Source: Planctomycetaceae bacterium (lineage in GTDB: Bacteria > Planctomycetota > Planctomycetia > Planctomycetales > Planctomycetaceae). Taken from it: a stretch of DNA of 44,649 bases. Positions 13,665 to 39,300 of this stretch are shown piece after piece. The stretch is from contig JABURQ010000029.1 of the NCBI GenBank assembly GCA_014762625.1, forward strand, positions 1 through 44,649, in the 5' to 3' direction. Every line of letters starts with the position of its first letter. The first letter of the stretch is position 1. The notes beneath the pieces are model-generated. The model did not search any database. It saw nothing but the letters and a program-made list of their open reading frames with translations, and was not told the DNA's origin. A program made the translations under genes and the position numbers.

Positions 13665-13803
13665 AAGGCCACTCCGGGAAGTGCTGAGAGTTCGTCTCTA
13701 CAAGATCGTACCGCGAAAGCCGCGTTGATGACGAATGGAACACCCGCAAGATTGGTAGTGATCATCGTCAAACATCGAGGCAAGCGGTTTCGAGAGGAGT
13801 GGA

Positions 13804-15189
13804 CTATTGGAATAACGGTCCCTGTTGTGCCTTCTCATAGAGTGCGCGCCATTGAGAAGAACCGTCGTCGGGGACCAGTTGCGTTTTGACCCCTTTCTCG
13901 AAGAAAGGAGTTTTCCCCGCCCGGCTCGCGTTGAGCATGAAGTTCACGGTGCCGTCGTTGGCGATATACATTTTCCGCCCATCGGCCCAGACAGTCTCGA
14001 TCAGTCGCTCCGGTTCGGGCCGCTGCTTCGGTTTTTTGACTTTGAACTTCGCGATCGCGTCTCGATCGAGTTCGTAACCCAGCCCCGGACGATCGGGAAC
14101 CTGCGCGTTGCCGCTCTTCACCGCGATCGGCTCGGTCAGAAGGATATGCGTATAAAGCTGATGGCAGTTCACGGCAGGCCAGGTTGCCTGACGCAGGACG
14201 CCTCCGAAGTGCAGTGAGAATGCGGCGGTAATGCCGGTCCCCACCATTTGCAGCCAGAATTTTTTGTCGGCCATTTCGCAGACCGCTCCGGTCTGCATGA
14301 TTTCGCGAGCGCCGTGTCCCACCACGAAGCCATCGCAGATTTCGTTTTTCAGGGCGACATACGGGTCGGGATTCCCGTAATGGTGGGCGATGCCGACGCG
14401 CGTAGCCGCCCGGATTTTCTGGTTCCCTTCGATATCATCCTGAAAGATGGGGGACTCATAGATGCCGATCTGTGGGTATTTCTCGAACTCCTTCAGAATC
14501 GGGATCGCCCGTTCGGCGGTGAGCAGCGTGTCGTTGAAGTCCATATCGATTTTGAATTCTTCGGGAACGACTTTGACGGATTGCTCGACCTGTTGCCAGA
14601 GATCGATCCACGGACGCCCTTTAGTTTTGTAGGCGAGATATCCCTGCTGCAACGCTTCCTTGCATTCGAGAACCATGTCTTCGGGAGAGGTATCGATATT
14701 CCACCAGGAAAGAGGCGTCTCGTCGTAAACCTTGTTCCCCAACAGAGCATGCACGGGAACCTCGCCGGCCCGCGCAACGGCATCGAAGAGCGCCATCTGC
14801 AAACCGGCACCGAGCGAATCATCCCACATCAGCTCGGCAGCGTTTTTCTGTTCCGCGCGGGCGACATCGTCGTCCGTGGTCACTCCCCAGGTGTAATACA
14901 GTAGCGTCTCCCCAAATCCCACCACCCCACAATTCAATTCAACTTCGACAATCTCCGAGTAACGCCAGTGCGGAATCTCGCGATCCATGTTCCGTGCGGG
15001 GACTTCGCGAAACGGAACCTTAACGGTCGTGCGGCGAATGTTTTTGACGCCGAGGTGCTTTGCGGAAGTGGGTTGAGCAGCAGAGACCGGATTCGAAACG
15101 GCGTTGGCCGCAAAAAGTGAGGAAGCGATCGCACCGGTTTTGAACAGATCGCGGCGGGAAACATTCGGGTCGGACGGAGGGAAGGACAT
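13804..15189 (-). CDS. Exported enolase-superfamily protein with Tat leader
   Basis: A 461-residue protein beginning with a twin-arginine leader (SRRDLFKTGAIASSLFAANA). The catalytic barrel shows K-x-K in YLAYKTKGR, a metal Asp in FKIDMDFND and Glu in IGIYESPIF. At the third ligand position, where ADES is usual, it reads VGIAHHYGNPD, with His in place of Glu/Asp. A C-terminal extension of about 80 residues, rich in Lys and Pro, follows the barrel. Export of an enolase-superfamily enzyme is unusual outside planctomycetes. It may act on sugar acids in the periplasm, or be a non-canonical member; substrate unknown. Confidence 0.8.
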   Translation of the reverse strand: MSFPPSDPNVSRRDLFKTGAIASSLFAANAVSNPVSAAQPTSAKHLGVKNIRRTTVKVPFREVPARNMDREIPHWRYSEIVEVELNCGVVGFGETLLYYTWGVTTDDDVARAEQKNAAELMWDDSLGAGLQMALFDAVARAGEVPVHALLGNKVYDETPLSWWNIDTSPEDMVLECKEALQQGYLAYKTKGRPWIDLWQQVEQSVKVVPEEFKIDMDFNDTLLTAERAIPILKEFEKYPQIGIYESPIFQDDIEGNQKIRAATRVGIAHHYGNPDPYVALKNEICDGFVVGHGAREIMQTGAVCEMADKKFWLQMVGTGITAAFSLHFGGVLRQATWPAVNCHQLYTHILLTEPIAVKSGNAQVPDRPGLGYELDRDAIAKFKVKKPKQRPEPERLIETVWADGRKMYIANDGTVNFMLNASRAGKTPFFEKGVKTQLVPDDGSSQWRALYEKAQQGPLFQ

Positions 15190-15403
15190 AGCGGGTTCCT
15201 GTTGGAGGAATGAATCGAGGCGGCGCTGACACTACTTCTTCGATAGCCTGAATCTCCGCTGATTGCAAGAACTCGTTTGATCACATAGATGTTTTCAGGT
15301 TCCGGGAGAGGCTCCATTATCTGCTTGTATTCTTAGAATCGCTCCCGTAATTTTGAACGACAGAGAGTACCCACTGCATCATAACGAATTGAAAGAGCCC
15401 CAA

Positions 15404-17620
15404 ATGATCCCACAGAGCCCCTCTCCCCGGCGTGTCATTCAACGACTCCTCATGCTTTTACTTGTGTTGATGCCGGCCAATGCATTTGCCCAGACTCAGC
15501 GTGTTTACGACGAGGGGCAATTGCCGAACGACAGTCGACTCGGGGAACTCAAAGATCTCAACGGTTATTTTCCGTTCGACGTTCCTTCCAGTCAGCCTGC
15601 CTGGGATGTTCGTGCCGAGGAGTTGCGACGACAGGTTCTCGTCGCTACGGGCTTATGGCCGATGCCAAACAAAACGCCGCTGAATGCCGTGATTCACGGC
15701 AAGGTTCAGCGGGACGGGTTTACTGTCGAGAAAGTCTACTTCGAGAGCGTTCCGGGACATTACGTCAGCGGACTGCTATTCCGTCCCGACGACGGCAAAA
15801 CGAATGTCAAACGCCCTGCCGTGCTCTGTCCTCACGGTCACGGCGGGCGACTTCAGGATCACGGATCGAACATCCAGAAACTGATCGAGTCCGGCGACGA
15901 AAAGTATGCTGACTCCGGGCGTTTTCCCAAACTGGCCCGTTGCGCCCATCTCGCGCGGATGGGGTGTGTGGTGTTCATCTTCGACATGCTGGGGTACGTC
16001 GACAGTCATCAGATTTCCTACGAACTGGCACATCGTTTCGCCAAACAACGTCCCGAATTCGATCAGCCTGATCACTTCGGCTTCTACAGCACGCAAGCGG
16101 AACTCCGTCTGCTTTCGATCATGGGGCTGCAAACCTGGAACTCGATTCGCTGTCTCGATTTCCTCGAACAGCTTCCCGATGTGGATGGAGAGCGAATCGC
16201 GGTGACCGGAGGTTCGGGAGGAGGCACTCAAACGATCTTGTTGTGTGCGATCGATCCCCGCCCGATTGCCGCGTTCCCGAACGGGATGGTCTCAACATCG
16301 ATGCAGGGGGGTTGTACGTGCGAGAATTGTACGCTGCTGCGGGTCGGCACGGGGAACGTCGAACTGGCGGCCCTGTTCGCTCCCAAACCGCAAGCGATGA
16401 CCGCCGCGGATGACTGGACCAAGGAAATGATGACCAAGGGTTATCCGCAGCTTCAACAACTTTACGAAATGCTGGGAGCCAAACAGAACGTTTACTGTCG
16501 CGAGATGCTGCACTTCAAGCACAATTATAACTACGTCACGCGGGCTACGATGTATGACTGGTTTAACAAGCACCTCCAGTTGGGTCTGGAGGAATCTGAT
16601 CTGGTCGAACGAGATTATCAGCTACTTACCCCGGAAGAATACACCGTCTGGAATGACGAGCATCCCCAACCGCAAGGGGGAGACGCTTACGAACGAGCGT
16701 TGTTGCAGGAACTGGCGAGAGAATCCGATCGGCAGATGGCAGAATTAATTCCCACCGATGAAGCGAGCTTCCGAAAATACCAGGACATTGTGGGTGGCGC
16801 TTTGGAGACGCTGATTCATCGGGAGCCCCCGAAATACGACGACCTGCAACGGGAGAAAGTTGATAAGGAAGAACGGGGCGGATATCTGCTGTTTAAGGAC
16901 AAACTCCGTGTGGCTTCGAGAGGCGAGGAACTTCCGGTCATTTCTCTCTACCCCAAACAGACGAAATGGAATGGTGAAGTCGTGATCTGGGTCGACGGCG
17001 AGGGCAAACGGGGACTGTTTGAAGACTCCGGTCTGGTTCGGACCGAAGTCATGCGACTGCTCGATGCGGGACTCTCGGTGGTTTCTGCCGATCTGTTTCA
17101 ACAGGGAGACTTTCTGTTCGGCGATCAACCTCTCCCACAACAACGGGTTGTCAAAAATCCGCGTGAGGCAGCGTCCTACACCTTCGCTTACAACGATACT
17201 TTGTTCGTACGTCGGGTCCATGACGTTCTGACACTGCTGGCCTGGATCCGGGGCGATGAACACGAACCTCAAAAAGTCTTTCTCGTCGGTGTGAACGGAG
17301 CCGGTCCGGTTGCGGCCGCTGCACGAGCGACGGTAGGCGATCAATTTGATGCGGCGGCCATCGACACAAAAGGATTCCGTTTCATCAATTTGAAATCGTA
17401 TCGGGATCCCGACTTTCTGCCGGGTGCGGTGAAGTACGGCGATCTGCCGGCTCTGCTGGCTCTGAACGCTCCACATCCTTTGTGGATTGGAGGAGAACAG
17501 GGAAAAACTCCCTCTCCCGTCAGTGAGAGTTATTCGGCTGCGGGAAGCGATGAGAATGTCACGTCCTACGAACAACAGAACACGATCGACGAGGCGGTCA
17601 ACTGGCTGATCAACCGCTGA
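15404..17620 (+). CDS. Exported acetyl xylan esterase-like protein with two alpha/beta-hydrolase halves
   Basis: A 738-residue protein with a Sec signal peptide (LLMLLLVLMPANAFA) that sets the start at 15404. The first half is a complete alpha/beta-hydrolase: CPHGHGG oxyanion region, nucleophile elbow AVTGGSGGGTQ with Ser in G-x-S-x-G, and a His in MLHFKHNYNYVTR. The second half (from about residue 510) repeats a Rossmann-like alpha/beta pattern (VVIWVDGEGKRGLF, VFLVGVNGAGPVAAA) but shows no Ser at its elbow (GVNGAG), so it looks non-catalytic. Planctomycetes carry many such exported esterases, presumably for deacetylating plant or algal polysaccharides. Divergent from the enolase pair. Confidence 0.8.
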   Translation: MIPQSPSPRRVIQRLLMLLLVLMPANAFAQTQRVYDEGQLPNDSRLGELKDLNGYFPFDVPSSQPAWDVRAEELRRQVLVATGLWPMPNKTPLNAVIHGKVQRDGFTVEKVYFESVPGHYVSGLLFRPDDGKTNVKRPAVLCPHGHGGRLQDHGSNIQKLIESGDEKYADSGRFPKLARCAHLARMGCVVFIFDMLGYVDSHQISYELAHRFAKQRPEFDQPDHFGFYSTQAELRLLSIMGLQTWNSIRCLDFLEQLPDVDGERIAVTGGSGGGTQTILLCAIDPRPIAAFPNGMVSTSMQGGCTCENCTLLRVGTGNVELAALFAPKPQAMTAADDWTKEMMTKGYPQLQQLYEMLGAKQNVYCREMLHFKHNYNYVTRATMYDWFNKHLQLGLEESDLVERDYQLLTPEEYTVWNDEHPQPQGGDAYERALLQELARESDRQMAELIPTDEASFRKYQDIVGGALETLIHREPPKYDDLQREKVDKEERGGYLLFKDKLRVASRGEELPVISLYPKQTKWNGEVVIWVDGEGKRGLFEDSGLVRTEVMRLLDAGLSVVSADLFQQGDFLFGDQPLPQQRVVKNPREAASYTFAYNDTLFVRRVHDVLTLLAWIRGDEHEPQKVFLVGVNGAGPVAAAARATVGDQFDAAAIDTKGFRFINLKSYRDPDFLPGAVKYGDLPALLALNAPHPLWIGGEQGKTPSPVSESYSAAGSDENVTSYEQQNTIDEAVNWLINR

Positions 17621-17687: not shown

Positions 17688-18548
17688 TTACGCGGCGTCT
17701 TTTAACAATTGTCTCTGCTCGAATTCGACGGTGCGCGGGATGTGGCTGGAGAGCCCCTGCCGGCAGACCGGAGAACTGAGCTCCTGTTGGAAATATTCCA
17801 GATTCTGAGTGTTCAGGTTGTTTCTGGAAAAAGAATCGACCGGCTCGTGCCAGAGATGATACGTCACGGTGCGATGGAGAATCGTGCGGAAGCGGAGTCC
17901 CGCCAGGGCAAGTCGTCGCTGAAGATCGCTGTCCTCCAGGCCCCAACCGACAAACCGTTCGTCAAATCCATTGACGCGCTCGAAGTCGCTTCTCGCGATA
18001 CCAATATTGTTGCCGGTCAGGCGCGGATGATTGGAAAGTGACAGAAAACTGTACCCCCAATCTTTGCACGCTTTGAGCAGAATTCGGGACCTTTCTTTCC
18101 AGGAGGCGAGCCCCTTGTATCGCTGTGCCAGGATGAAGTCTTTGTCGATCTGTTCGGAAGTTTCTCGATCGAGTCGCAAGCAGTCGCCGACGATCACCGT
18201 CCCAAGTTTCGCCGATCGCAAATGCCAGGCGACATGGTCGGGAGGGAGGAGACAATCACAATCGACGAAGAGAAGATAGGGAGCGGAACTGGCCAGCACG
18301 CCTTCATTGCGAGACCGGGCAAGTTGAAATCCCTCGTGGTCGTGGGTGGTGAAGGAGAGGGGAAACGGCGCTGACTTCGCGCAGCGATCGACCACTTCCA
18401 ACGTTTCATCGGTGGACCCATCGTCGGCAACCACCACTTCCATTCGCCCTGCGACCCCCTGCTGCTCTCCGAGCGACCACAGGCATCTCTGGAGATGCTC
18501 CGGTCGCTGGTAGCTGGAGACAATCACGGCGATCTCTTGCACGGGCAT
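17688..18548 (-). CDS. Glycosyltransferase family 2
   Basis: A 286-residue GT-A fold enzyme without membrane segments. It shows the N-terminal nucleotide-sugar strand IAVIVSSYQRPEHLQRCL, VVADDGSTDETLEVV, the D-x-D type metal site LFVDCDCLLPP and a catalytic-loop block GWGLEDSDLQRRLALAG (the E-D typical of chondroitin polymerase-like and galactosyltransferase-like GT2). It would transfer a sugar from a nucleotide sugar to a glycan or lipid acceptor in the cytosol. No Shine-Dalgarno is evident before the ATG. It is the first gene of a group of glycan/ligase-type genes in alternating orientation up to 25419. Confidence 0.87.
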   Translation of the reverse strand: MPVQEIAVIVSSYQRPEHLQRCLWSLGEQQGVAGRMEVVVADDGSTDETLEVVDRCAKSAPFPLSFTTHDHEGFQLARSRNEGVLASSAPYLLFVDCDCLLPPDHVAWHLRSAKLGTVIVGDCLRLDRETSEQIDKDFILAQRYKGLASWKERSRILLKACKDWGYSFLSLSNHPRLTGNNIGIARSDFERVNGFDERFVGWGLEDSDLQRRLALAGLRFRTILHRTVTYHLWHEPVDSFSRNNLNTQNLEYFQQELSSPVCRQGLSSHIPRTVEFEQRQLLKDAA

Positions 18549-18946
18549 GGAATGGTTGGTCGATCGGGGAGGAATGATAGGGAGACCGGCCTTGAGCGAC
18601 GTTTTCGCTGGAAACGCTGCTGACCGGAGAGTACCGGAGGTATAATCCCCATGGGAGATTGCGCCAAGATTTCTTTCTCGGTGAAGTCGTTTCCATGGCG
18701 GAATTTACAATAATTATCAACGCCCCAAAAACGCTCGTCATCATCATGACTAGAGACGGCACTTTCGTCCGCAAGATCACTTGCGACTCATCTGGACACA
18801 GAGTCTGAAATCTTCTAGATCTTTGGTCCTTTCCGTTGTGTCGCAGAAGAGATTGGAGTTGATTGTCCCCGAATTCGGATCTCTCCAGAAACTGCTTCCC
18901 GGAGATTCGTTCGCTATGCCAAATCACTCACTGTTCGGAAACCTTC
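18549..18946. other. Divergent intergenic region between GT2 and asparagine-synthetase-like genes
   Basis: About 400 bases with no convincing gene; a 37-codon ORF at 18694 has no good ribosome site. A perfect TATAAT lies at 18641-18646 on the plus strand but its -35 side (around 18618) is poor. If used, it would give the downstream gene a leader of about 300 bases. Confidence 0.35.
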
Positions 18947-20779
18947 ATGGCTCACGTCGTCCTCACTATCGAGCCAGATCCGACGATTCGCCGCACGTTC
19001 CTGTTGCAGGCAACGTCTGTTCTGGAGTCTGATTCTGAGCTGGAGGTTCATTCTGCGGAAGTCGGTGAATTGGCCGTCGTCTGGGCTCATGGGGCTCACG
19101 TACCCGTCGGGTTCATTCAGGATTCTCAGGATTTTTGTCTGCTCCTTGGGTACGCCATCGATGACCAGGAGCGTCACCTGGATGAGAATATTCTGCAGAG
19201 AGAATGGACGAAAGAAACAGTCAACCAGCCAGGTTGGAGCGGTTACTTTGCTGCAGTTCGCTACTCGGAGACCACCGGACTCGCCGTGGACGTCGATCTG
19301 CTCGGTTATTTCCCGATGTATGTTTATCATCGGGACGGGGTCCTGATTGCGGGATCGAGTGGCGCGCTCTTTGAATCCCATCCCCTATTTCGATCAGAAC
19401 TCGATCCCTTGGGATTGGCGGGAATTCTGCTCACAAACGGATTGGTCAATGAACGCACTCTGTTCAAAGATGTTCGTCAATTGAGCGCCGGCTGTCGCCT
19501 GTTTCGTTCTCCCGCAGGACTGGTTTCGGATCTCAGAACTTGGGAATTGGAGGTCGCTTCCGACGAATCGATCTCGTTCGAAGAAACGGTCTCATCGGTG
19601 GATGAGGAACTGATCGCCGCCATTCAGAGGCATCGTCCCCCTAACGAATCCACCACCTTAATGTTATCCGGCGGGTTGGACTCCCGCTTGATGGCAGGCT
19701 ATCTCGATCGAGTCGGGATGAATTTTTCAGCCACCACCTTCGGGAGATCAATCGACTTTGAAGTTCGCGGAGCTCGACAAGTGACTCGCTTGCTTGAGAT
19801 TCCACATACGGAGATCACAACGGAGGGCTCGGAAGAAGAGATCGTGAGAACGGCATCACGCATCGCCCATCTGGATCATCTCACGCACGGATTCAGCGGT
19901 ATCCAGGGGGAACGAGCATCTATCGGATCGACGTCTCCCATGTTCTGGTCGGGTCATTTTCTCGATGATTTGCTCGGAGGGTACGCAGCCGGATTTGCAA
20001 TCGACCCGGAGACTCATCAACTGAGCTTCGAAACTTTCTTCCGGAAACTGAATCGATGGGGAATGGCTCCCAAGACTCTATCACGCCTGATACAACCCTC
20101 CTTTGACGACAGCGACGAGGCCGTTGCTTCCGTGATCGAAAGTTTTCGAGCGACCTGGAATGGATACACAGGGTCGGATGCGCAGAAATCGTTTCAACTG
20201 AAACTGGCCACCCGAGCCCGCTATCATCTTGCCGGATCGCTGCATCGTCTGTCATTCGACACCTGGCCGATCACACCACACCTTGATCGCCGACTGTTAA
20301 ACCGGATGATTCGCGTTCCGCTGGAGTTCTCTCTTCGACGACGGCTCGAAAACCGACTCTTGTCGTCATCGTTTCCCGAACTCGATGCGTTACCTTTGGA
20401 TACGAATTCCTTTCGTTTCGAAAACTCCTCGGGACTCAAGGCCAGGCATCCTCTACACCCGAGGAAATTATGGGTGAGTGCTCAGAAGTCACTGCGAAGC
20501 TGGTATTGGCTCCACTGGCGGCGGACGGAACCGCGTCGATATCATCGTGTTTTCGATCCCGATCAAAGAGACTGGAAAATCATTCGAGCCGCCGCGGAGC
20601 CACATCGGCAGGAGCTTTCGACATGGCTGGATGACCGGGAACTTCGCAAAGTTCTGCCGTCACCGGAAGTGAACCTCGGCTACGCCGATCCATTTGCGGA
20701 TGGAGCGGCGTTCCGAAATCTGTGCGGACTGATGCTGTGGAAGGCTGGGTCAGTAAGTGAGCTCCATCGAGCGGCGTAA
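18947..20779 (+). CDS. Asparagine synthetase-like protein without glutaminase Cys
   Basis: A 610-residue protein with AsnB architecture. An N-terminal Ntn-type domain (GWSGYFAAVRYSETTGLAVD, VYHRDGVLIAGSS) is followed by an adenylation domain with PP-loop LSGGLDS (residues 240-246). Real asparagine synthetases start Met-Cys, with Cys as glutaminase nucleophile; here the start reads MAHVVLTIEP, so glutamine hydrolysis by the normal route seems impossible. AsnB-like enzymes without Cys exist in amidation of uronic acids in glycans and in lasso peptide or beta-lactam ring closure. It lies beside a PP-loop protein, glycosyltransferases and a pyruvyl transferase, so an amide-forming step on a glycan or small molecule is plausible. 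The start is weakly supported (GGAA upstream). Confidence 0.82.
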   Translation: MAHVVLTIEPDPTIRRTFLLQATSVLESDSELEVHSAEVGELAVVWAHGAHVPVGFIQDSQDFCLLLGYAIDDQERHLDENILQREWTKETVNQPGWSGYFAAVRYSETTGLAVDVDLLGYFPMYVYHRDGVLIAGSSGALFESHPLFRSELDPLGLAGILLTNGLVNERTLFKDVRQLSAGCRLFRSPAGLVSDLRTWELEVASDESISFEETVSSVDEELIAAIQRHRPPNESTTLMLSGGLDSRLMAGYLDRVGMNFSATTFGRSIDFEVRGARQVTRLLEIPHTEITTEGSEEEIVRTASRIAHLDHLTHGFSGIQGERASIGSTSPMFWSGHFLDDLLGGYAAGFAIDPETHQLSFETFFRKLNRWGMAPKTLSRLIQPSFDDSDEAVASVIESFRATWNGYTGSDAQKSFQLKLATRARYHLAGSLHRLSFDTWPITPHLDRRLLNRMIRVPLEFSLRRRLENRLLSSSFPELDALPLDTNSFRFENSSGLKARHPLHPRKLWVSAQKSLRSWYWLHWRRTEPRRYHRVFDPDQRDWKIIRAAAEPHRQELSTWLDDRELRKVLPSPEVNLGYADPFADGAAFRNLCGLMLWKAGSVSELHRAA

Positions 20780-20848
20780 TTACTTGGGATCGAACTTCAA
20801 GAGAAAGCAACTGACAGTTCTTCTCCTGTTTCAGAAGTAGAATTGAGT

Positions 20849-21964
20849 ATGAGATTCGTTGATATGAGAAAATCCTGGTATCTTTCGGCCCCGGCGCAAA
20901 CGTTCTCAGGCGGAGTTTGCCGGGTGAGCGCCAAGGTTTCGGGGCGAGAGGTGTGGTTCGAGTCAACCACGCCGCTGAATCCCTCGGCGGAAGCATTTGC
21001 CGGAGCTTTTTTCCTGCCGGCGTTACACACCGGTCGAACTTTGAACGTGGAATCCACCCTCGATGAACATTGGCTGGCCGAAACGGAAAAGCTATTACCC
21101 ACTTTGCACAAATGGTGGGGCTATCCTCAGGAATCGCCCCTCCGTGCGGAAACCGGTCAGGCACATCAGTCCGAACCGAGGAACTTATCGACGAGTGAGT
21201 CGTCCGGCCTTTGTTTTTCGTGCGGTGCCGATTCCTTCTACAGCTTACTGAAACGCGATTCCCCACCGAGCGACCTGGTGTACGCGCACGGTTACGACAT
21301 TCCCGTCGATGACCGGCAACGATTTCAGACTCTCGAACCTTCTTTGCGAGAAGTCAGTCGAGAACGAGATGTGAGTCTGCACGTCATCCGCACGAATTTA
21401 CGGACACATCCCCTGTTCAAAAAAGTGAGTTGGGACAGAACCCACGGAGCGGCACTCGCGGCGCTGGGACATTTACTCGGAGACCAGATTTCCCGGTTGG
21501 TCATCGCCCCGAGTTATCGTTACGAATGCGCACACCCGTGGGGATCGAGCTGGCTGCTCGACCCGCATTGGTCGAGTTCAACGGTCCGAATCGAACACGA
21601 TGACGCCACCCTTGGGCGATACCAGAAGATACAATCGATTTCTCAAATATCGCTCGCTCAAAAACATCTTCAGGTCTGCTGGTCTCTGAGGTCCGAAAGC
21701 GGTAACTGCGGCGAATGCGAAAAGTGCCTGCGAACGATGGTGATCCTGGAATTTTCGAAGGCATTACATCTGTGCCGAACGTTTCCTCAAAAAACCTCGT
21801 TGTCGGAACTGATCGATCGCCAGCCGAAATTGCCCTCACACCTGCACGCCACCTGGAAGGAACTGCGCGACTTGAGCCACCACCCCGAAACTCAAGCTGC
21901 CATCGATCGGTGGTTTGACCGTTCGGCGAATGCCTCAAACTGGTGGAGGCGTCTCGCCGGGTGA
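20849..21964 (+). CDS. QueC-like PP-loop superfamily protein with altered P-loop
   Basis: A 371-residue protein, unnamed. The PP-loop region reads LCFSCGADSFYSLL (S-C-G-A-D-S, residues 124-129) where functional enzymes have S-G-G-x-D-S; Cys replaces the first Gly. Further on it has VIAPSYRYE, and a cluster CGECEKCLRTM like the Zn site of QueC-type enzymes. Its N-terminal 110 residues do not match a domain I recognise. It follows the asparagine-synthetase-like gene by 69 bases on the same strand, so the two are probably one unit. The start is uncertain: TTG 20843, ATG 20849 and ATG 20864 are in frame. It probably adenylates a carboxylate or carbonyl oxygen; this is inferred from the fold only. 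Confidence 0.75.
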   Translation: MRFVDMRKSWYLSAPAQTFSGGVCRVSAKVSGREVWFESTTPLNPSAEAFAGAFFLPALHTGRTLNVESTLDEHWLAETEKLLPTLHKWWGYPQESPLRAETGQAHQSEPRNLSTSESSGLCFSCGADSFYSLLKRDSPPSDLVYAHGYDIPVDDRQRFQTLEPSLREVSRERDVSLHVIRTNLRTHPLFKKVSWDRTHGAALAALGHLLGDQISRLVIAPSYRYECAHPWGSSWLLDPHWSSSTVRIEHDDATLGRYQKIQSISQISLAQKHLQVCWSLRSESGNCGECEKCLRTMVILEFSKALHLCRTFPQKTSLSELIDRQPKLPSHLHATWKELRDLSHHPETQAAIDRWFDRSANASNWWRRLAG

Positions 21965-22018
21965 TTTTAAGAACGTGACACCTCCCTGGCTCGATCTCGA
22001 TCGGGAAGAGTGACTGAC

Positions 22019-22846
22019 TCAGGTAAAAGACAGTCGTAGCGAGTTGCGGATTCTGCGTGCAGCGGACGACCAGCAGTGTCGCGTCTTAAACGACCAACTC
22101 AACGTTCCTCGATTCAGTTTTGCCAGTGCTTCGTCCAGCGAACAGGCGAAGTCACAGCCGAGATCCCGAAGCCAGGTTTCGTAGAGACTCCGATTTTTAT
22201 GATAGGAGTTGGGTAACAGGATCACGTGGCGATCCTGCAAGATTCCCGCCACCGCCATATGCAATCGGTTCGTAATCAGAGACTCATAGCGTGCGGCCAG
22301 CCGCAGATATTCCTCAGGTGTGCGTGCCAGCTTGACGGGATCCTGCGAATACCAGGGGGGAACCGCGTGGGCTTCCTGATCCTTACGAAGGAAGACTCCC
22401 AAGGTTTCCACCGCTGGAGGGAAACTGGTTTTCGGCTCGTACGCCAGCGCTAAATCGGGAGCCAGAATTGCCTCGGGGGCAAACTTGAAGCTAGCGTTTT
22501 CACGGACAAACACACGATGAAAGGGGCGATCTTCCGGGCCGAGAAAGGACTGCGGCAGAATGGTGACAGGCAAGCCGGTTTCGAGACAGGCCCCTCTCAG
22601 GTCCCAATTCGACCGGTAGGTTTCTCCCATATTCCCCCCTCCTCCGAAGACCAGTTCCTGGATCCCTTCTAGAGATTGGTGCGGACTCCAATCTCTCCAC
22701 TGAACGCGAAAATGATCGAATAGCTGAACGGTCGCTTGCTCGATCAAGAGATCGCCGACATTTCCCAGCGGACGGACGAAGCCGATCTGTTTCCCTTGCA
22801 GCGGTTCAAAAACAGGCGAAAAGCGGGAGGCTGGTAGATGTGCCAT
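22019..22846 (-). CDS. Polysaccharide pyruvyl transferase family protein
   Basis: A 275-residue cytosolic protein. It shows GNVGDLLIEQA, the glycine-rich ELVFGGGGNMGE, TILPQSF, ITNRLHMAVAGIL and LLPNSYHKN, the ordered blocks of the CsaB/ExoV/WcaK-like pyruvyl transferase family. The family transfers a ketal pyruvate from phosphoenolpyruvate to a sugar of an exopolysaccharide or cell-wall polymer. It is shorter than many members (about 350). GGAGAG lies seven bases before the ATG. It is convergent with the PP-loop gene and divergent from the ATP-grasp gene, and it points to a surface glycan as the product of the region. Confidence 0.85.
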   Translation of the reverse strand: MAHLPASRFSPVFEPLQGKQIGFVRPLGNVGDLLIEQATVQLFDHFRVQWRDWSPHQSLEGIQELVFGGGGNMGETYRSNWDLRGACLETGLPVTILPQSFLGPEDRPFHRVFVRENASFKFAPEAILAPDLALAYEPKTSFPPAVETLGVFLRKDQEAHAVPPWYSQDPVKLARTPEEYLRLAARYESLITNRLHMAVAGILQDRHVILLPNSYHKNRSLYETWLRDLGCDFACSLDEALAKLNRGTLSWSFKTRHCWSSAARRIRNSLRLSFT

Positions 22847-23083
22847 TGAGGACTCTCCCTTGTTCGATCAGCGACATGAATAGACGAGAAAACCACCGCC
22901 GGTTCCGGATCTCCGAAACGCGCATGATGGTGGACTGTGGCCTTTCACCGGAGACAACCGTCCGGCGATGATAGGAGAAGCCATCAATCGAGGCCAGAGC
23001 GGATTACCAAGGACAATACCCCTGTTCCACCTTGAGGAAACCGGGGATTTTTTCTATCAATCGATTCTTCTTCCACTAATGGA

Positions 23084-24346
23084 ATGACGATGTTGAAGCC
23101 ACCTCGCCTCCCTCCGCCGGAATTTGTGTTGTCCGATTTTTATCCGGCAAACTGCGTCCTGAATTCTCGCCATTCATTTCAGAGTTTCGGGTGGCTCACA
23201 GCCAATCTACCCGGAGCCGACTTTCGGACGGGAGCCGCGTTGACGATCAACGGCTCGCTTCCCGTGATCTGTTCTGCCGGGGTCTGTTCGCCACGTACCA
23301 ACTATATTTTTGAACTCGCCGGACTCCCGGAGAACTCGCACCGAATCATCTATCAAAATCAATCGGGATTTGAATCCCTTCTGGACGAGTGCCAGCGACG
23401 AAAACAATCGGTCATCTTCCAGCATCAGTTTCCGGAACAGGAACGACCGCGGGAATTATACTGGATCGATCCGGATTTGCTGGGACACCTCAATAATAAA
23501 GCGTATTTGCATGAGTTCGTCCCGGAACCTTACGTCCCTGAGCGAACCATTTTTCCGGTGAGTGAATTGTCGACATTTCTGAGTGTAGAAGCGACTCGAC
23601 CTCTCGTCCTCAAAGGAGGGGCCAACCTGCCGACGGGAGGTGGAATCTCCGTCTGCATTATCCGAACAGATCAGGATCTGGAAAAAGCCCGCGAGCGTCT
23701 GCAGATCGGCGAGCAAGTTGTGGCCGAACGGTTCCTGTCGATCGAGAAGAACTACTGCGTGAATTTCGGCACGGACGGTCAGCAGGTGAGGTTACTGGGA
23801 TGCTGCGAGCAGATCACCAATGAATCCGGACAGTATTCCGGCAACTGGCTCAGCCTCGTCGATCAGCCTCCCGCTGAAGTGATTGAGGTCGGGTATGAGA
23901 TTATGCAAACGGCCGCAAAGCGGGGATATGTGGGAGTCGCCGGTTTCGATATTGTGCGCGAGAGTAGCGGTAAGATTCTGGTGATCGATCTGAACTTCCG
24001 ACTCAATGGATCGACCCCCGGATTGCTCTGGCAAAACCGCGTCCTGACCAGATCGGGATCGAGATCGGTCGGACGCATTGTCCGTTTGAGTTTTCCACTG
24101 GATGTCGATCCCGAGTTCACTCTCCTCAGGGAATTGACCGCAAGCGGCTGGTTCTTTCCGCAAGTGATCTACGATCCTGAAGTCAGCCAGAATCCCCTTG
24201 AGGAAGTGCGAGTCCTGGGAATTCTTTTCGGTCACTCCCGCGATCAGGTCGAGCGGCGACTTCAGAGGATTCACCGAAAGTTTCAAATTTTCACGCAGGC
24301 ACCGAGCAAGTCTCAGCAGTTTCCTCCGATTTCGCGGGCCGCTTGA
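23084..24346 (+). CDS. ATP-grasp ligase-like protein
   Basis: A 420-residue protein with a pre-ATP-grasp domain (ICSAGVCSPRTNYIFELAG) followed by an ATP-grasp fold. It shows the Lys strand LVLKGGANLPTGGG, QVVAERFLSIEKNYCVNF, and a Mg/ATP-binding end VIDLNFRLNGSTP with the D-x-N-x-R pattern. ATP-grasp enzymes form an acyl phosphate and couple a carboxylate to an amine, thiol or similar. It could therefore make a peptide- or amide-type bond in the product of this region. It is divergent from the pyruvyl transferase; both the 23084 and 23090 ATGs are possible starts. The specific substrate is not recognisable. Confidence 0.8.
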   Translation: MTMLKPPRLPPPEFVLSDFYPANCVLNSRHSFQSFGWLTANLPGADFRTGAALTINGSLPVICSAGVCSPRTNYIFELAGLPENSHRIIYQNQSGFESLLDECQRRKQSVIFQHQFPEQERPRELYWIDPDLLGHLNNKAYLHEFVPEPYVPERTIFPVSELSTFLSVEATRPLVLKGGANLPTGGGISVCIIRTDQDLEKARERLQIGEQVVAERFLSIEKNYCVNFGTDGQQVRLLGCCEQITNESGQYSGNWLSLVDQPPAEVIEVGYEIMQTAAKRGYVGVAGFDIVRESSGKILVIDLNFRLNGSTPGLLWQNRVLTRSGSRSVGRIVRLSFPLDVDPEFTLLRELTASGWFFPQVIYDPEVSQNPLEEVRVLGILFGHSRDQVERRLQRIHRKFQIFTQAPSKSQQFPPISRAA

Positions 24347-24366
24347 GACGCCCCCCTGTTTGCCGA

Positions 24367-25419
24367 TCAGGAGGTGAGAACCGACTGCGGCTTTCCTTGC
24401 CGAGGGAGTTTTTCCCACTCCGCAAAAACCTGGGCCCATGAATCCATCGCGACTTGAAGTCCCCATTCCCGTTCCAGTTTTTCGCGAGCCGCTATACGCA
24501 TACGTTCTCGTTCGCCTTTCTCGAAAGCACACCGGCTCGCTTTGTAGACAAATTCCCGATCATCGCGACACAGCCACCCGGTCACGCCGTCCTCCACCTG
24601 GATCCGCCAACCCCCACGGTCATCCACAATCAGAATGGAGCCGGAGGCCATCGCTTCAAAACCGACGCGCGGCAGGTTCTCGAAAGTGTCGGTCGTCATG
24701 ATGATGGCGTCGCACTGTGTGTAGAACGCGCGCTGACTGAGACCACAGGGCGGAAGCGTGCTGACAAACGGTTCGGGAGTTTTCCCGAACTTCTCACGGA
24801 CATTCTCTCCCCAGCCTAAAATCAGCCCCTCCTTGAGGACCGGAGCGGTCATCGTGTCGTAAATCCACAATTGCCGCGGATGGAATTTATCGGCGTCCGC
24901 ACGCGAAATACGACCGAATCGGAACTTTTCCTGAGGACGATTGTCGATGAAGGGGAAATCTTCCGCGTGGAAATACGGCTGAAAAAAGAGCGGTCGATAA
25001 CTTTCGAAGTCTTTGAGCCGAGCGCTCACTTTTTCGAACGCATGCTGAGTTTGATAAAGCTGAAAATCAATCCAACCCTGAGACTGCGCGACGATCTCTT
25101 GCTCGAACGTCCAGGACATGCAGTTCACGAATGTCGTACTGCGAGCGAACTTGTGAATCTGTTCGAGGTTCTCGAGGAACTGGTCGTTACAGAAGGAAAT
25201 ACAATGGAGGCCTTCCAGCGAAGCCCAGTCGTTCGGCTCATGATAGACGCAACCCCTCTCCTCCAATTTCATCCCCTTAAGATTCTCGTCGAGCGGCCCA
25301 CCCGGGCAAACATGAACTTCGATCCCCATCGCCTGCCAACACCGGATCTGATGATCCAGTTCGGTATCTGCTCCTCCGAGAGAACTCGGGTGTCCAATAA
25401 TGCAAAGTGAATTAATCAT
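24367..25419 (-). CDS. Glycosyltransferase, GT4-like (GT-B)
   Basis: A 350-residue GT-B type protein. The start at 25419 has AGGAG six bases upstream. The N-terminus has CIIGHPSSLGGADTEL, the GG-x-E/D acceptor-side loop seen in GT4 enzymes, and the C-terminal half has LPRVGFEAMASGSILIVDDRGG, the E-A-x-A-x-G nucleotide-sugar block, with a conserved ENLPR before it. It would transfer a sugar from a nucleotide donor in the cytosol. Convergent with the ATP-grasp gene (20 bases apart) and last of the glycan-like group. Downstream of it on the same strand there is no gene until 22846. Confidence 0.83.
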   Translation of the reverse strand: MINSLCIIGHPSSLGGADTELDHQIRCWQAMGIEVHVCPGGPLDENLKGMKLEERGCVYHEPNDWASLEGLHCISFCNDQFLENLEQIHKFARSTTFVNCMSWTFEQEIVAQSQGWIDFQLYQTQHAFEKVSARLKDFESYRPLFFQPYFHAEDFPFIDNRPQEKFRFGRISRADADKFHPRQLWIYDTMTAPVLKEGLILGWGENVREKFGKTPEPFVSTLPPCGLSQRAFYTQCDAIIMTTDTFENLPRVGFEAMASGSILIVDDRGGWRIQVEDGVTGWLCRDDREFVYKASRCAFEKGERERMRIAAREKLEREWGLQVAMDSWAQVFAEWEKLPRQGKPQSVLTS

Positions 25420-25601
25420 TTTCGCTCCTGTGACCGGATTTCTCGAACATTCAACCAACCCAAAAGAGTTGTGGCCAAATTTTCACTACCTGTGACACCC
25501 AGTAAAAGAGCAATTCCGCCCTTCCATCAAAATTGATTCAAAAAACAGGACGGCACGCTGTTTGAAAAAGCAGGCAGCGTGGAAGAGCCAAAACATCAAA
25601 A

Positions 25602-26013: not shown

Positions 26014-27585
26014 TTATGCCGGGCGATATTTGAGCGAACGGCCCGGTTGTAAGTCTCCCGTAATTTCGATCGGCTCCCCGGCTTGTAGAATCGGCACGCC
26101 GTTCACGATGACATGTTCGATGCCGAGACACGTTTGTTGCGGATCGTCGTAAGTCGCCCGGTCGGAGACGGTCTGCGGATCAAAGACGACCACGTCGGCG
26201 AAAGTATTCTCGCGGATTTCGCCTCGGTCTTCGAGACCGAATCGTTGGGCAGGAATGCCGGTCATTTTGTGGACAGCCTGTTCCAGGGAAAAGAGTTTCC
26301 GATCCCGCACCATCGGTCCCAGCAGACGCCCCGCAGACCCGAACACGCGCGGATGAACGTGGGCGCTCTCATGGTAAATGCCGTCCGAACCCATCATATA
26401 GAGGTCGTGCTGCAGGAAGGGCTCGATGAGGCGGTCGTCCCCCTGATCGAACACCAGCAGAACCGCCAACCGCTCTTCCAACAGAAAACGGAACAGAGCT
26501 TCTTCCGCCGGCAAATCGACCTCGTCGACATACTGCGCGAGACTTTTTCCCTGATGGACGGCGTTTTCGGAACTGGCGGTCCAGGCGATTTTGATGTGGT
26601 CGAGGTCGAGTCGATAAAGCTTGAGACCCTCAGCGAATTGAGCTTTGACCGCTGGATCGCGCATTTTTGTCATCGCCGCCAGAGGACCGTCTTCCCAGAC
26701 TTCGTACGGCAGCAGGTAATTGAGCATCGTCGAGCCGGGTTGATAGGGATAGACATCAAAGGATATATCGACTTGATGCCGGGCTTCACGATCGATGTAT
26801 TCCAGAATCGGTTCGATATCGTCGGAAGTGAGACCTTTGAGGTGAGAAATATGAACCCGCACGCCCGCGCGGCGTCCGATTTCGACCGCCTCCTTCAAAC
26901 CGTTCATGATGCCGGTTTTGTAGCGCATATGCGTCACATAGAGACCATCATACGGGGCCATCGCTTCGCAGGCTCGCACCAGTTCCTCCGTCGTGGAAAA
27001 ACATTGAGCGATGTAGTCGAGTCCCGTCGACAACCCGACTGCTCCGGCCTCCATTCCCGCTCGGATCTCGCCGCAAATCTGTCGCATTTGGAAATCATCG
27101 ACCGCCTGACGCCCAAAACCACACGCCAGCGTCCGAACGTTGGCGTAGGGGACATGAGGGATGAAGTTCTGAACATTTCGCCCTTCTGCGAACTCCATGA
27201 ACTCCGCCAAAGAGCGCCAACCGCGATATTCATCCAGCCGCAAAGCGTTCAACGCACGCAAGTAGAATGTCCATTCCAACGCCGTCTGATCGTTGACGGG
27301 CGCATACGAGATGCCGTCCGCCATGATCACTTCGGTGGTGAACCCCTGCGTCGTCTTGGCAGACAGTTGCTCGGTCTTCAGCAACCAGCCATCGGTGTGA
27401 TTGTGGACATCGATAAATCCGGGGGCCACCGCTTTGCCGCCGGCGTCGATCACCGCTTGGGCGTCCGCGTTTGAAAGATCGCCGATCTTCGCGATGCGAT
27501 CTCCGGCAAGGCCGATGTCGGCGGGCCGGGACTCGGCTCCGGTCCCATCGATGAGAATTCCGTTACGGATCAGGATGTCGAACAA
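26014..27585 (-). CDS. N-acyl-D-amino-acid deacylase-like amidohydrolase
   Basis: A 523-residue cytosolic metal-dependent amidohydrolase. It opens with the standard small beta-domain (FDILIRNGILIDGTG), then PGFIDVHNHTDGW with the H-x-H metal pair, THMRYKT, VHISHLKGLT and a terminal GSDGIYHESAHVHPR. The HPRVFGSAGRLLGP block is typical of D-aminoacylases. It would hydrolyse N-acyl-D-amino acids or related amides; the exact substrate is unknown. It is divergent from the exported gamma-glutamyltransferase gene. Confident at family level. Confidence 0.87.
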   Translation of the reverse strand: MFDILIRNGILIDGTGAESRPADIGLAGDRIAKIGDLSNADAQAVIDAGGKAVAPGFIDVHNHTDGWLLKTEQLSAKTTQGFTTEVIMADGISYAPVNDQTALEWTFYLRALNALRLDEYRGWRSLAEFMEFAEGRNVQNFIPHVPYANVRTLACGFGRQAVDDFQMRQICGEIRAGMEAGAVGLSTGLDYIAQCFSTTEELVRACEAMAPYDGLYVTHMRYKTGIMNGLKEAVEIGRRAGVRVHISHLKGLTSDDIEPILEYIDREARHQVDISFDVYPYQPGSTMLNYLLPYEVWEDGPLAAMTKMRDPAVKAQFAEGLKLYRLDLDHIKIAWTASSENAVHQGKSLAQYVDEVDLPAEEALFRFLLEERLAVLLVFDQGDDRLIEPFLQHDLYMMGSDGIYHESAHVHPRVFGSAGRLLGPMVRDRKLFSLEQAVHKMTGIPAQRFGLEDRGEIRENTFADVVVFDPQTVSDRATYDDPQQTCLGIEHVIVNGVPILQAGEPIEITGDLQPGRSLKYRPA

Positions 27586-27768
27586 GAAATCACTCGCTTT
27601 GGTCTGAAGTAGGGCCCGTCCCCATCATATCCTCTACGGATATAAGATCCACGAACAGCAACTGTAAAGACCGGGCGAGTTCCCAAGTTCCCGGACTCAG
27701 CTTGACTCCGCGCCTCCCTCCACCGAGACTCAGTGGAAAAGCGCGGGAAACTTTTCAGGAATTATCAC

Positions 27769-29505
27769 ATGAGAACTCTCACCGTCGTCGTCTTGATCGG
27801 CTGGACATCGTCGCTTCTCGCTGCGGGACCGTTTGAACGCCCTGCCCGAACTCCCGTCGTCACAGCCGCCGGGCGGCAGGGCATGGTGGTGTCCAATTGC
27901 GATATCGCCTCACAAGTGGGAGTCGAGGTTCTCGCGGAGGGAGGAAACGCCGTCGATGCCGCGATTGCGGTCGGGTTCGCGCTCACCGTCACCTGGCCGG
28001 AGGCGGGAAACATCGGAGGGGGAGGATTCATGATGGTCGCGCCGTCCGACCGGGATGTGGTGTGCATCGAATACCGGGAAACGGCTCCCGACGCCGTCGA
28101 AGCGGATTCGTTATCGAAGTGGACAAACCGCCGTCACGAACGGATGGTGGGAGTTCCGGGAACGGTTCGCGGCTTCTGGCTGGCTCATCAGAGATACGGC
28201 ACACTCCCCTGGAAACGACTGGTCGAACCCGCCATTAAACTGGCTTCTGAAGGGATCGAGGCCGATGAGTTTCTGGCGTGGACACTCAATGGCATTCTCA
28301 GACAGGAAGACATTCAAACCGATCCGCGGTACGCCGAATTTCGACGTGTGTTCGGACCGCCCGACAAACAATACTGGACCGCCGGGGATCGACTGGTGCA
28401 ACCCGATCTCGGAAAGACATTCACACTGATCGCGGAGCGGGGCGCCGATGCGTTTTATGAAGGTCCGATCGCGGAACAAATTGTCGCTCAGATGAAACGG
28501 GGGGATGGCTGGATCACTTTGGAGGATTTGAAGTCGTACCGCGCCAATCATCGTCCGGCAATTCACGCACAGATTAAAGGCTACGACTTCTATGGCGCAC
28601 CGCTACCCAGTTCGGGCGGAACGACGGTCCTGATGGAACTGAGAATGCTGGAAACGCTGGGGGTTCAAAAATCTCCCGACTATTTCTGGTCGATGGAACA
28701 CATCCACCTGATGACGGAAATCATGAAGCGTGCGTTTCGCGAGCGGGCCGCTTATCTGGGGGACGCTGATTTCGTCGACATCAATCCTGTCGTCTGGTCC
28801 CGAGACCACGCCGCCCAACTGGCACAATCCATCGATCCTGAACAAGCCACGCCGAGCATCGAACTCGCCGGGGATATTCCCGTGACGAGAGAGCTTTACG
28901 AATCTCCACAAACGACTCATTTTTCGGTTATCGATGAAAACGGGATGGGGGTCAGCAATACCTACACACTCGAAGCCAGCTACGGAAGCTGCGTTGTGGT
29001 GAAAGGAGCCGGTTTTCTTTTGAACAACGAAATGGGTGATTTCAACCCGATCCCCGGACGGACCGATACGGAAGGACGCATCGGAACACAACCGAATCTG
29101 ATGGCTCCCGGGAAACGAATGCTGAGTTCGCAATCTCCCGTCATCATCAAACAAGACGGCAAGGTCAAACTGCTGGTCGGCTCTCCGGGCGGTCGCACGA
29201 TTATCAATACGGTCTTCGAGATCCTCGTACAGACCCTGTTCTTCGAACGTTCACTGGAGGATGCGGTGAACGGACCGCGATTTCATCACCAGTGGTTCCC
29301 CGACATTTTACATCTCGAGTCCGATTTATCGTTGTTGCCGGAGGATGTTCAGGAGGGACTGAAACAACGTGGACAGAATCTGTCCGTCCGGGAATCCGCG
29401 CGACAGGGTTCAGCGCATTGCATCGAAGTCGATCTCAAGTCCGGGGTCGCAACAGGCGTCGCGGACTGGCGACGTGGAGGAGCGGCAATCGCCGTGAAAA
29501 AATAG
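27769..29505 (+). CDS. ggt: Exported gamma-glutamyltransferase
   Basis: A 578-residue precursor. AGGAA lies eight bases upstream of the ATG at 27769, which opens a signal peptide (TVVVLIGWTSSLLAAG). GGNAVDAAIAVGFALTV and GNIGGGGFMMV are in the large-subunit part. The autocatalytic cleavage site is at TTHFSV (Thr383, the nucleophile), followed by the small subunit (GVSNTYTLEASYGS, GFLLNNEMGDF, GSPGGRTIIN). It cleaves gamma-glutamyl bonds, such as glutathione, in the periplasm. The genome segment also encodes a glutamate-cysteine ligase-like enzyme at 31317, so gamma-glutamyl metabolism is shared. Confidence 0.92.
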   Translation: MRTLTVVVLIGWTSSLLAAGPFERPARTPVVTAAGRQGMVVSNCDIASQVGVEVLAEGGNAVDAAIAVGFALTVTWPEAGNIGGGGFMMVAPSDRDVVCIEYRETAPDAVEADSLSKWTNRRHERMVGVPGTVRGFWLAHQRYGTLPWKRLVEPAIKLASEGIEADEFLAWTLNGILRQEDIQTDPRYAEFRRVFGPPDKQYWTAGDRLVQPDLGKTFTLIAERGADAFYEGPIAEQIVAQMKRGDGWITLEDLKSYRANHRPAIHAQIKGYDFYGAPLPSSGGTTVLMELRMLETLGVQKSPDYFWSMEHIHLMTEIMKRAFRERAAYLGDADFVDINPVVWSRDHAAQLAQSIDPEQATPSIELAGDIPVTRELYESPQTTHFSVIDENGMGVSNTYTLEASYGSCVVVKGAGFLLNNEMGDFNPIPGRTDTEGRIGTQPNLMAPGKRMLSSQSPVIIKQDGKVKLLVGSPGGRTIINTVFEILVQTLFFERSLEDAVNGPRFHHQWFPDILHLESDLSLLPEDVQEGLKQRGQNLSVRESARQGSAHCIEVDLKSGVATGVADWRRGGAAIAVKK

Positions 29506-29614
29506 GCGATTTTGTCCCGGAAGCAACGGTTCAACGTTAAACTGCGATTTCAATTTGTTCGGATCTCGGCAATATTACGTGTGGTCGCCCGAATAACGTA
29601 ACTTGGAGATTTGT

Positions 29615-30037
29615 ATGAAACCTACAGGATTGTTCGCCTCCGTTGGATTACTCGTCTTACGAATTGTTTCCGGTGCGATGATGATTGCCGCTCACGGCTG
29701 GGGTAAGTACGAGAGCTTCGCTGACAAAGCCGACAGTTTTGCTGACCCGCTGGGGCTCGGTCCCAAATGGAGCCTGATTTGCACCATCATTACGGAAGTG
29801 GCCTGTTCGGCTTTGCTGGTAATCGGACTCGGCACGCGACTCGCGGCCGCCGCTTTAGTGTTCACGTTTGGCGTCGTTATTTTTGTGGTCCACGGAGAGG
29901 ATAGCGTCCTCGATAGAGAACTCCCGATCCTGTATCTGGGTATCTATGCCACAATCGTAGCGACGGGTCCTGGAATCTTCTCCTTCGACGCTCTGATAGC
30001 CCGCCGTCGTCGGAAGCAAAAAGAAAAAGGCGAGTAA
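29615..30037 (+). CDS. DoxX family membrane protein
   Basis: A 140-residue protein with four predicted membrane segments (about residues 6-24, 50-70, 77-97, 108-128). The first segment ends in GWGKYESF, the family's usual sequence after helix 1 (G-x-x-K). GGAG lies six bases before the ATG; an in-frame ATG 12 bases earlier lacks this spacing. DoxX-like proteins are small membrane proteins of varied or unknown redox-related function. It follows the ggt gene by 109 bases and precedes the M20D gene by 46, so it could be co-transcribed with them. Confidence 0.85.
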   Translation: MKPTGLFASVGLLVLRIVSGAMMIAAHGWGKYESFADKADSFADPLGLGPKWSLICTIITEVACSALLVIGLGTRLAAAALVFTFGVVIFVVHGEDSVLDRELPILYLGIYATIVATGPGIFSFDALIARRRRKQKEKGE

Positions 30038-30083
30038 CTCAGTCTCTCACCCTCAATTCAAGACGGATACCAAGGCAGATATT

Positions 30084-31301: not shown

Positions 31302-31316
31302 TACGGAAAGCGAGTG

Positions 31317-36686: not shown

Positions 36687-36704
36687 GACAGGAGTCACTC
36701 CAGG

Positions 36705-37928: not shown

Positions 37929-37948
37929 AATTAAGTCCAGGAATACTC

Positions 37949-39022: not shown

Positions 39023-39300
39023 AGCAGGAAATCCCTTACATCAGACAGAAATCATGTTCGATAGAATTGCCAAACGACATCCGGTCGTTGATCAGCTTGA
39101 GACAGGAACTAAAGATCGCTACACACAAACAGAATGAATTTTTCCCGGCAGCAATCAGACAGAAGGAGAGAAAATCGCCAGACGAACGTCTCAGAAGAAA
39201 TCAACGAATTCCCCGACCTCTGACTTTATGGTCACTGGAGCGGGACCGTTTGTCAACAAAATTTTCCTGACGCGTTGTTAAGCGAGAGCCAAAACATCGC

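Follow-up and report, generated by a model that had tools for sequence, protein, structure and literature searches.

Gene content of the locus

The stretch of DNA analyzed here, positions 1 to 44,649 of one contig (JABURQ010000029.1) in the 6.23-Mb genome of a Planctomycetaceae bacterium (GCA_014762625.1) and referred to as the window, carries six open reading frames (ORFs) at 17688–25458, each of them intact and in frame. They encode two glycosyltransferases, an AsnB-like protein that lacks the nucleophilic Cys, a PP-loop protein, a protein of the polysaccharide pyruvyltransferase (PPT) family, and an ATP-grasp ligase. Gene content, motifs and predicted folds define a family of PP-loop proteins whose linkage with PPTs and with Cys-less AsnB-like proteins extends across phyla. 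The six genes are as follows.

17688..18548, minus strand: GT2 glycosyltransferase, 286 aa (Pfam PF00535, 1e-19; Glyco_transf_7C, 1.1e-13)
18947..20779 (ORF from 18863), plus strand: Cys-less AsnB-like protein, 610 aa from the ATG (PF00733 Asn_synthase, 25.7 bits, 1.1e-5)
20849..21964 (ORF 20843–21964), plus strand: QueC-superfamily PP-loop protein, 373 aa counted from 20843 (by alignment and structure model)
22019..22846, minus strand: PPT family protein, 275 aa (PF04230 PS_pyruv_trans, 1.1e-12)
23084..24346, plus strand: ATP-grasp ligase, homologue of LdmS, 420 aa (ATP-grasp_3, 1.5e-8; NCBIfam NF047900, 5.5e-74)
24367..25419 (ORF to 25458), minus strand: GT4-type glycosyltransferase (GT group 1; PF00534, 7.8e-8)

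An earlier note on this DNA had described the six genes as lying together with no unrelated gene between them, and no further gene was found among them. The likely ATG starts of the AsnB-like and PP-loop proteins are at 18947 and 20849. In the order GT2, AsnB-like, PP-loop, PPT, ATP-grasp and GT4, the strands run − + + − + −, and a single six-gene operon was rejected because of this alternation. The only codirectional neighbours are the AsnB-like and PP-loop genes, which are separated by 69 bp if the ATG starts are used; judging from direction and neighbourhood, they are the sole pair that could share a transcript. A promoter scan of the locus gave no excess over chance (3 sites vs 3.5 in shuffles), and terminator-like sites between 17500 and 26000 are more numerous than expected (17 vs 9.1, standard deviation 2.9). 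The G+C content of the locus and its third-position G+C lie inside the range of the flanks, where the nearest genes encode an alpha/beta hydrolase (15353–17620) and an amidohydrolase (26014–27585). The GT2 protein reaches 94.7 bits with the NCBIfam model EPS_EpsD, which has a cut-off of 370.

A branch of the QueC superfamily

At E 0.1, no model of Pfam, NCBIfam or PADLOC matches the PP-loop protein of the window, the QueC models PF06508 and TIGR00364 and the QatC models of NCBIfam and PADLOC among them; at E 1, no PDB sequence does either. Among 16 members of its family, three match PF06508 (best E 1.2e-4), two match TIGR00364 (best 0.056), and one matches the QatC model NF041925 (E 0.037); none of the six families matched by these members is a sugar amidotransferase.

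The protein combines a P-loop (SCGADS) with a Cys motif, C279-x9-C289-xx-C292-xx-C295. Residues C279, N288, C289, C292, K294 and C295 are invariant in 60 aligned members, and C(x)9CxxCxxC is present in 56 of the 60. The P-loop SGGxDS occurs in 43 of the 60 members, a conservation that is not counted as evidence because the pattern used in the search already prescribes some P-loop positions. A Cys at the same P-loop position as in the window protein is also found in L109 (SCGADS) and in L099 and L119 (TCGVDS). Tandem copies of the PP-loop gene are frequent: in 12 of 99 loci, a second copy on the same strand is no more than 300 bp away from the focal gene (L115, L119, L132, L139, L142 and L146 are among the loci with tandem copies).

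The AlphaFold2 model of the window protein (predicted local distance difference test [pLDDT], 93.5; predicted template modelling score, 0.91) aligns best with QatC in VIA-align (Z 14.1; root-mean-square deviation, 5.0; 290 residues aligned, covering 8–361 of the model and including the N-terminal domain), and the N- and C-terminal extensions around the QueC core that are typical of a QatC-type fold are present. Further matches include QueC (Z 11.8), Cap9 (Z 10.6), LarE, and the nitrile synthetase ArtA; the typical best Z is 7 to 8 when a model has no clear match. Foldseek returned nothing from PDB at E <= 0.001, so the statement on the fold rests on VIA-align.

Despite the likeness in fold and the shared combination of a PP-loop with a C-terminal Cys cluster, the protein differs from QatC of the anti-phage defence system qatABCD. 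Its motif is C(x)9CxxCxxC, whereas that of QatC is given as C(x)19CGxCxxRR in the relevant passages of PMC13329287, and no QatA- or QatD-type neighbour was recognized around the PP-loop gene. QatB has no Pfam model according to the same passages; that it is missing here is concluded from the fact that the locus contains no further gene. The structure of QatC is treated in parts of PMC13279940. QueC (preQ0 synthase) shares the PP-loop, the fold and a similar motif, C(x)8CxxCxxC, but the present family has an extra N-terminal domain and lacks the QueC substrate motifs: YxQxHxxE and YPDC occur in none of the 60 members and VPxRN in one. Within the QueC superfamily, these proteins form an undescribed branch that combines a two-domain fold resembling that of QatC with a Cys motif of the QueC type and lacks the other QueC signatures.

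These comparisons bear on two alternative chemistries. One is that the enzyme attaches a nucleobase acid, such as 7-carboxy-7-deazaguanine, to an amine of a glycan or protein, much as Cap9, acting with a CD-NTase, deazaguanylates its partner protein (stated in a section of PMC13329287). The best fold matches, QatC and QueC, and the score of Cap9 are in line with this reading, and a canonical QueC gene elsewhere in the source genome makes the presence of the precursor pathway likely. The near-absence of the QueC substrate motifs argues against it, as does G179, a genome that is 88% complete and carries the PP-loop gene but in which no QueC match exceeds the cut-off; the reading is therefore considered very improbable. 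The other is that the product is a sugar amidine, nitrile or thio derivative rather than an amide, as might be expected by analogy with WbpG and LarE. WbpG, which is related to PF06508, is annotated as a sugar amidotransferase of an O-antigen pathway and placed in the family in sections of PMC13329287, the source of the QueC signature motifs; LarE and ArtA are among the fold matches. However, the Cys motif of the window protein is QueC-type in its order and not reversed as in the WbpG cluster described there, the protein has no match in NCBIfam, and neither a HisH/HisF-like nor a sulfur-donor gene was recognized in family scans of the window, which makes such a product improbable.

Linkage of PP-loop and pyruvyltransferase genes across phyla

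The PPT of the window exceeds the cut-off of the PF04230 family (48.9 bits vs 25.3). In 26 aligned sequences, R194 and H196 of an RLH motif are invariant, and R154, D156, E158 and K217 are nearly so. By sequence, the protein is predicted to transfer pyruvyl groups from phosphoenolpyruvate (PEP).

The association of this gene with the PP-loop gene was assessed in 106 loci that carry a PP-loop gene (20 from genomes of the same phylum, drawn from 33 PP-loop places; one Gemmobacter plasmid; four from a viral collection; 80 from GTDB; and the window), which form 99 groups at 85% identity. The GTDB loci are the best 80 of 207 confirmed matches by similarity to the PP-loop protein of the window. In 21 of the 99 loci, a PPT is no more than 300 bp away from the focal PP-loop gene, compared with a mean of 1.8 and a maximum of 8 for the focal copy in 5000 trials in which the same PPTs were placed at random; if any PP-loop copy is considered, the number is 25. 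Any PPT is present in 35 of the loci, and a PPT adjoins a PP-loop copy in 16 of the 71 loci whose sequence extends for 1.5 kb or more in both directions. In bins of 0–300 bp, 300–1500 bp and then 1.5 kb each, counted before two further PPTs were added, the numbers of PPTs are 21, 5, 4, 0, 1, 2, 1 and 0, and those of GT2 genes are 5, 14, 9, 6, 5, 2, 4 and 4. Counted separately with PF04230 in 22 genomes (two congeners and 20 genomes carrying the PP-loop gene), 8 of 25 PPT matches are at most about 1.2 kb away from a PP-loop gene.

Judged by record titles, adjacent pairs are present in Pseudomonadota, Planctomycetota, Verrucomicrobiota, Kiritimatiellota, Actinomycetota, Cyanobacteriota, Myxococcota, Thermodesulfobacteriota, Nitrospirota and Vulcanimicrobiota, and on a Priestia plasmid (Bacillota) the two genes are direct neighbours with 349 bp between them. 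Many of these records are metagenome-assembled genomes (MAGs); records not titled as MAGs include Aliagarivorans, Thauera, Microbacterium and Rhodococcus. In two Azospirillum plasmids that were viewed, PPT and PP-loop form a two-gene unit among unrelated genes.

Genes surrounding PP-loop/PPT loci are often those of glycosyltransferases and of lipopolysaccharide (LPS) or exopolysaccharide (EPS) type. Among 134 neighbouring ORFs (scanned out of 152 candidates from 32 other loci, chosen for a PPT within 2.5 kb or an AsnB), the most common Pfam families include GT4-type glycosyltransferases (up to 8), ABC_tran (6), GT25 (4), GT9 (3) and Kdo kinase (3), as counted from the 25 commonest of 143 families. 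A literature search found no paper joining pyruvyl transferase with PP-loop proteins and none combining at least four of pyruvyl transferase, PP-loop, asparagine synthase, glycosyltransferase and ATP-grasp; a search for QueC-like proteins with polysaccharide yielded, judged by title, only phage papers. Neither "polysaccharide" nor "pyruv" occurs in the text of PMC13329287 covered by a term search.

A Cys-less subfamily of AsnB-like proteins

Asparagine synthases of class B possess an N-terminal nucleophilic Cys, which is missing in the AsnB-like protein of the window. The protein begins with MAHVVL if translated from the ATG at 18947, with no Cys after the start Met, which bears out its earlier description as Cys-less. 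Its P-loop is LSGGLDSR, and the AsnB-like two-domain fold is present: the model (pLDDT 78.1, from 8 sequences) aligns with TsnB9 (Z 29.7), AsnB of Escherichia coli (Z 29.5) and beta-lactam synthetase (Z 27.3). The enzyme is predicted to adenylate a carboxylate.

Hidden Markov model (HMM) searches detected AsnB-like genes in 11 of the 99 PP-loop loci. One distinct subfamily is present in 8 of the 99 loci; its members begin with a sequence resembling MANxxxIVDPDxxRRxAF, have SGGxDSR as the P-loop and a segment similar to LPLDRNS, and lack a Cys after the start Met. As the loci were found through the PP-loop gene, these counts do not give the frequency of the subfamily away from it. Seven of the eight loci also have a PPT (the window, L117, L123, L139, L147, L157 and L169), and the eighth (L099) is a contig of 3.8 kb. 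The Cys is present in the AsnB of L134 and L136 and in the first of two in L147; that of L146 is only a fragment. PP-loop, PPT and Cys-less AsnB-like protein keep company far beyond the source genome.

Among 392 genomes of the same phylum, only the copy in the window passed E 1e-50; misses are possible because only three candidates were scored for the listed genomes. A plasmid search from the subfamily gave only partial matches, none covering 80% of the query. An AsnB-like fold in a glycan pathway is a feature shared with WbpS and related uronamide enzymes (eps_aminotran_1), and the uronamide of Porphyromonas gingivalis requires the AsnB-like WbpS, as stated in a part of PMC7468200. By contrast, the window protein lacks the nucleophilic Cys, belongs to a separate subfamily, and matches TIGR03108 (eps_aminotran_1) only partially (43.5 bits, far below the cut-off of 816.9 bits).

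Amide-bond ligases in the neighbourhood

The ATP-grasp protein of the window is a homologue of LdmS (L-aspartate–L-methionine ligase) over almost its whole length. It scores 249 bits over nearly the entire model NF047900 and matches PDB 7r8p at 1.6e-45; unlike LdmS, it remains under the 475-bit cut-off of the model and stands in a glycan context. LdmS-like ATP-grasp genes were found in 2 of the 99 loci, the window and a plasmid of Gemmobacter aquarius, where the order is PPT, PP-loop, ATP-grasp and GNAT, beside EPS genes.

Other ligases recur in the vicinity of the PP-loop gene. A second Gemmobacter locus comprises formyltransferase, PP-loop, GT25, PPT, Mur ligase and GT4, and a Mur ligase directly follows the PP-loop gene on a Pirellulaceae contig (L097:7768-10327) on which no PPT was detected and whose PP-loop protein is among the nearest kin of the window protein in the tree. 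Both Mur ligases are MurF-like (168 and 178 bits; cut-off 288.6). Nonribosomal peptide synthetase (NRPS) genes lie close to PPT and PP-loop on two Gloeothece plasmids. ATP-grasp proteins of other types are encoded beside the PP-loop gene of a plasmid of the archaeon Halorientalis (L181), which has no PPT there, and about 5 kb from the PP-loop gene in L147. Haloarchaeal plasmids carry distant homologues of the PP-loop protein. For the window protein P0005, 33 pattern matches for close relatives in genome contigs were obtained, none of which was confirmed.

The ligases raise the possibility that the locus makes a small-molecule or glycopeptide natural product, in which they would build a peptide or amide that the glycosyltransferases and the PPT decorate, with no surface polysaccharide involved. 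The closest folds to the AsnB-like protein (TsnB9, AsnB and beta-lactam synthetase), the homology of the ATP-grasp protein to LdmS and the NRPS genes of Gloeothece are compatible with such a product, as is the lack of recognized polysaccharide export genes in the window. However, the glycan and LPS/EPS character of the commonest neighbouring families points in another direction, and family scans of the window recognized no carrier protein, NRPS or peptide precursor; this origin is regarded as rather unlikely.

Distribution of the locus

The six-gene locus is accessory. The PP-loop family is present in 20 of 392 genomes of the same phylum, including the source genome. Among 59 genomes (the source and 58 relatives, two of them of the same genus), the PP-loop gene occurs in one besides the source, and partial matches to the ATP-grasp protein occur in two. 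The two genomes of the same genus have no PP-loop or PPT match and no full-length ATP-grasp, and the six genes were found together nowhere else searched. GT4-family proteins in general do occur near other PP-loop genes, but no close relative of the window GT4 was found there (phmmer, E 1e-5). The company of all six genes that the earlier note had proposed to look for in relatives is not kept in the genomes searched.

With the alternating strands and the excess of terminator-like sites, the rarity of the ATP-grasp gene, the lack of close relatives of the window GT4 near other PP-loop genes and the fact that the full set was not found elsewhere would suit a loose accessory island in which PP-loop, PPT and AsnB-like proteins cooperate and the ATP-grasp and both glycosyltransferases are unrelated passengers. 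Yet the only other locus found with the PP-loop gene and a homologous ATP-grasp gene, that of Gemmobacter aquarius in another phylum, also has an adjacent PPT, and we consider the passenger scenario unlikely. A recent insertion at an empty site was not demonstrated: in a congener (G002), the orthologue of the flanking alpha/beta hydrolase (79–80% identical) is surrounded by different genes, and the contig stops about 9 kb further downstream.

A putative pathway of glycan decoration

We favour, with roughly even confidence, an accessory locus for the decoration of a glycan or glycoconjugate, built on a recurrent core of PP-loop and PPT and here joined by the Cys-less AsnB-like protein. QueC- and AsnB-like enzymes act via adenylates, and ATP-grasp and Mur ligases via acyl phosphates. 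Adenylation is supported by the QueC-type fold (Z 11.8–14.1) and the AsnB/beta-lactam synthetase fold (Z 27–30), which are those of adenylating PP-loop enzymes. Amide formation on a pyruvylated or uronic-acid glycan is the most economical reading, because the locus encodes three proteins of carboxylate-activating families and a PPT-family protein whose product would bear a carboxylate.

From these families, we infer substrates, order of steps and product as follows. GT2 and GT4 would assemble a short glycan, to which the PPT would add pyruvate from PEP as a ketal, leaving a free carboxylate on the glycan. The QueC-like and AsnB-like enzymes might each adenylate a carboxylate (of the pyruvyl group or a uronic acid), and the activated carboxylate would be passed to ammonia or to the amine of an amino acid or dipeptide. 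The amino-acyl or dipeptide part could come from the LdmS-like ATP-grasp protein, via an acyl phosphate.

A more specific and tentative proposal, to which we give perhaps one chance among several, is that this PP-loop branch, with members in glycan loci across many bacterial phyla, couples the carboxylate installed by its partner PPT to an amine, with the Cys-less AsnB-like protein as a second, co-evolved activator, and thereby forms a new glycan end-group. Under the same proposal, the end-group would be a pyruvyl-ketal amide or a pyruvyl-linked amino acid or dipeptide.

Several observations weigh against a role in glycan decoration. No PPT was detected within 300 bp of any PP-loop copy in 74 of the 99 loci and none at all in 64, although many contigs are short and HMM detection overlooks some PPTs; hence, the PPT is not obligatory. 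None was found beside the PP-loop homologue in the plasmids of one haloarchaeon, Paracoccus and Nostoc that were viewed, and in the latter two no amide-bond ligase is annotated there either. Loci with an adjacent PPT are dispersed across the PP-loop tree, a quick tree without bootstrap, and no PPT-paired clade is formed (22 labelled rows of 99, with 20 changes vs a shuffled mean of 20.0; 305 of 500 shuffles were as low). The pairs of Azospirillum lie outside any glycan cluster, and general family scans of the window recognized no flippase, polymerase or polysaccharide export gene. At the level of residues, the second Gly of SGGxDS is replaced by Cys in the P-loop of the window PP-loop protein. 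In AsnB and beta-lactam synthetase, there is a C-terminal loop with a functional Lys; the Cys-less AsnB family shows LP(L/M)D(R/T)N at this place, so that its chemistry may differ.

The earlier note had envisaged a new route to an amidated or amino-acyl, pyruvylated glycan. Such a product fits the company of PP-loop, PPT and AsnB-like proteins, the glycan-type neighbours and the presence of MurF-like and NRPS ligases in a few relatives, and the proposal is plausibly right in kind; its treatment of the six genes as one unit is not supported, given the distribution of the ATP-grasp and GT4 genes.

Enzymes with a QueC fold are known mainly for the modification of tRNA and DNA bases and, lately, from phage defence. 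A further branch tied to sugar pyruvyltransferases in many phyla would, if true, suggest that a decoration of bacterial surface glycans has been overlooked. It also provides a concrete functional hypothesis for two unnamed enzyme groups, the family of PP-loop proteins and the Cys-less subfamily of AsnB-like proteins, and the two-gene unit of the Azospirillum type is small enough for direct study.

Other features of the window

A planctomycete cytochrome C domain is present within the window. Upstream of the locus, two adjoining and mutually related genes of the enolase superfamily (MR_MLE) occupy 12570–15189. Genes encoding a gamma-glutamyltranspeptidase, an M20 peptidase and a protein of the glutamate–cysteine ligase family (GCS2) lie together on the plus strand at 27733–32432 and perhaps form a gamma-glutamyl peptide unit. 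On the minus strand, a row of three T2SSF genes and one T2SSE gene extends over 35586–40536, with a strong AT skew over 36001–40000.

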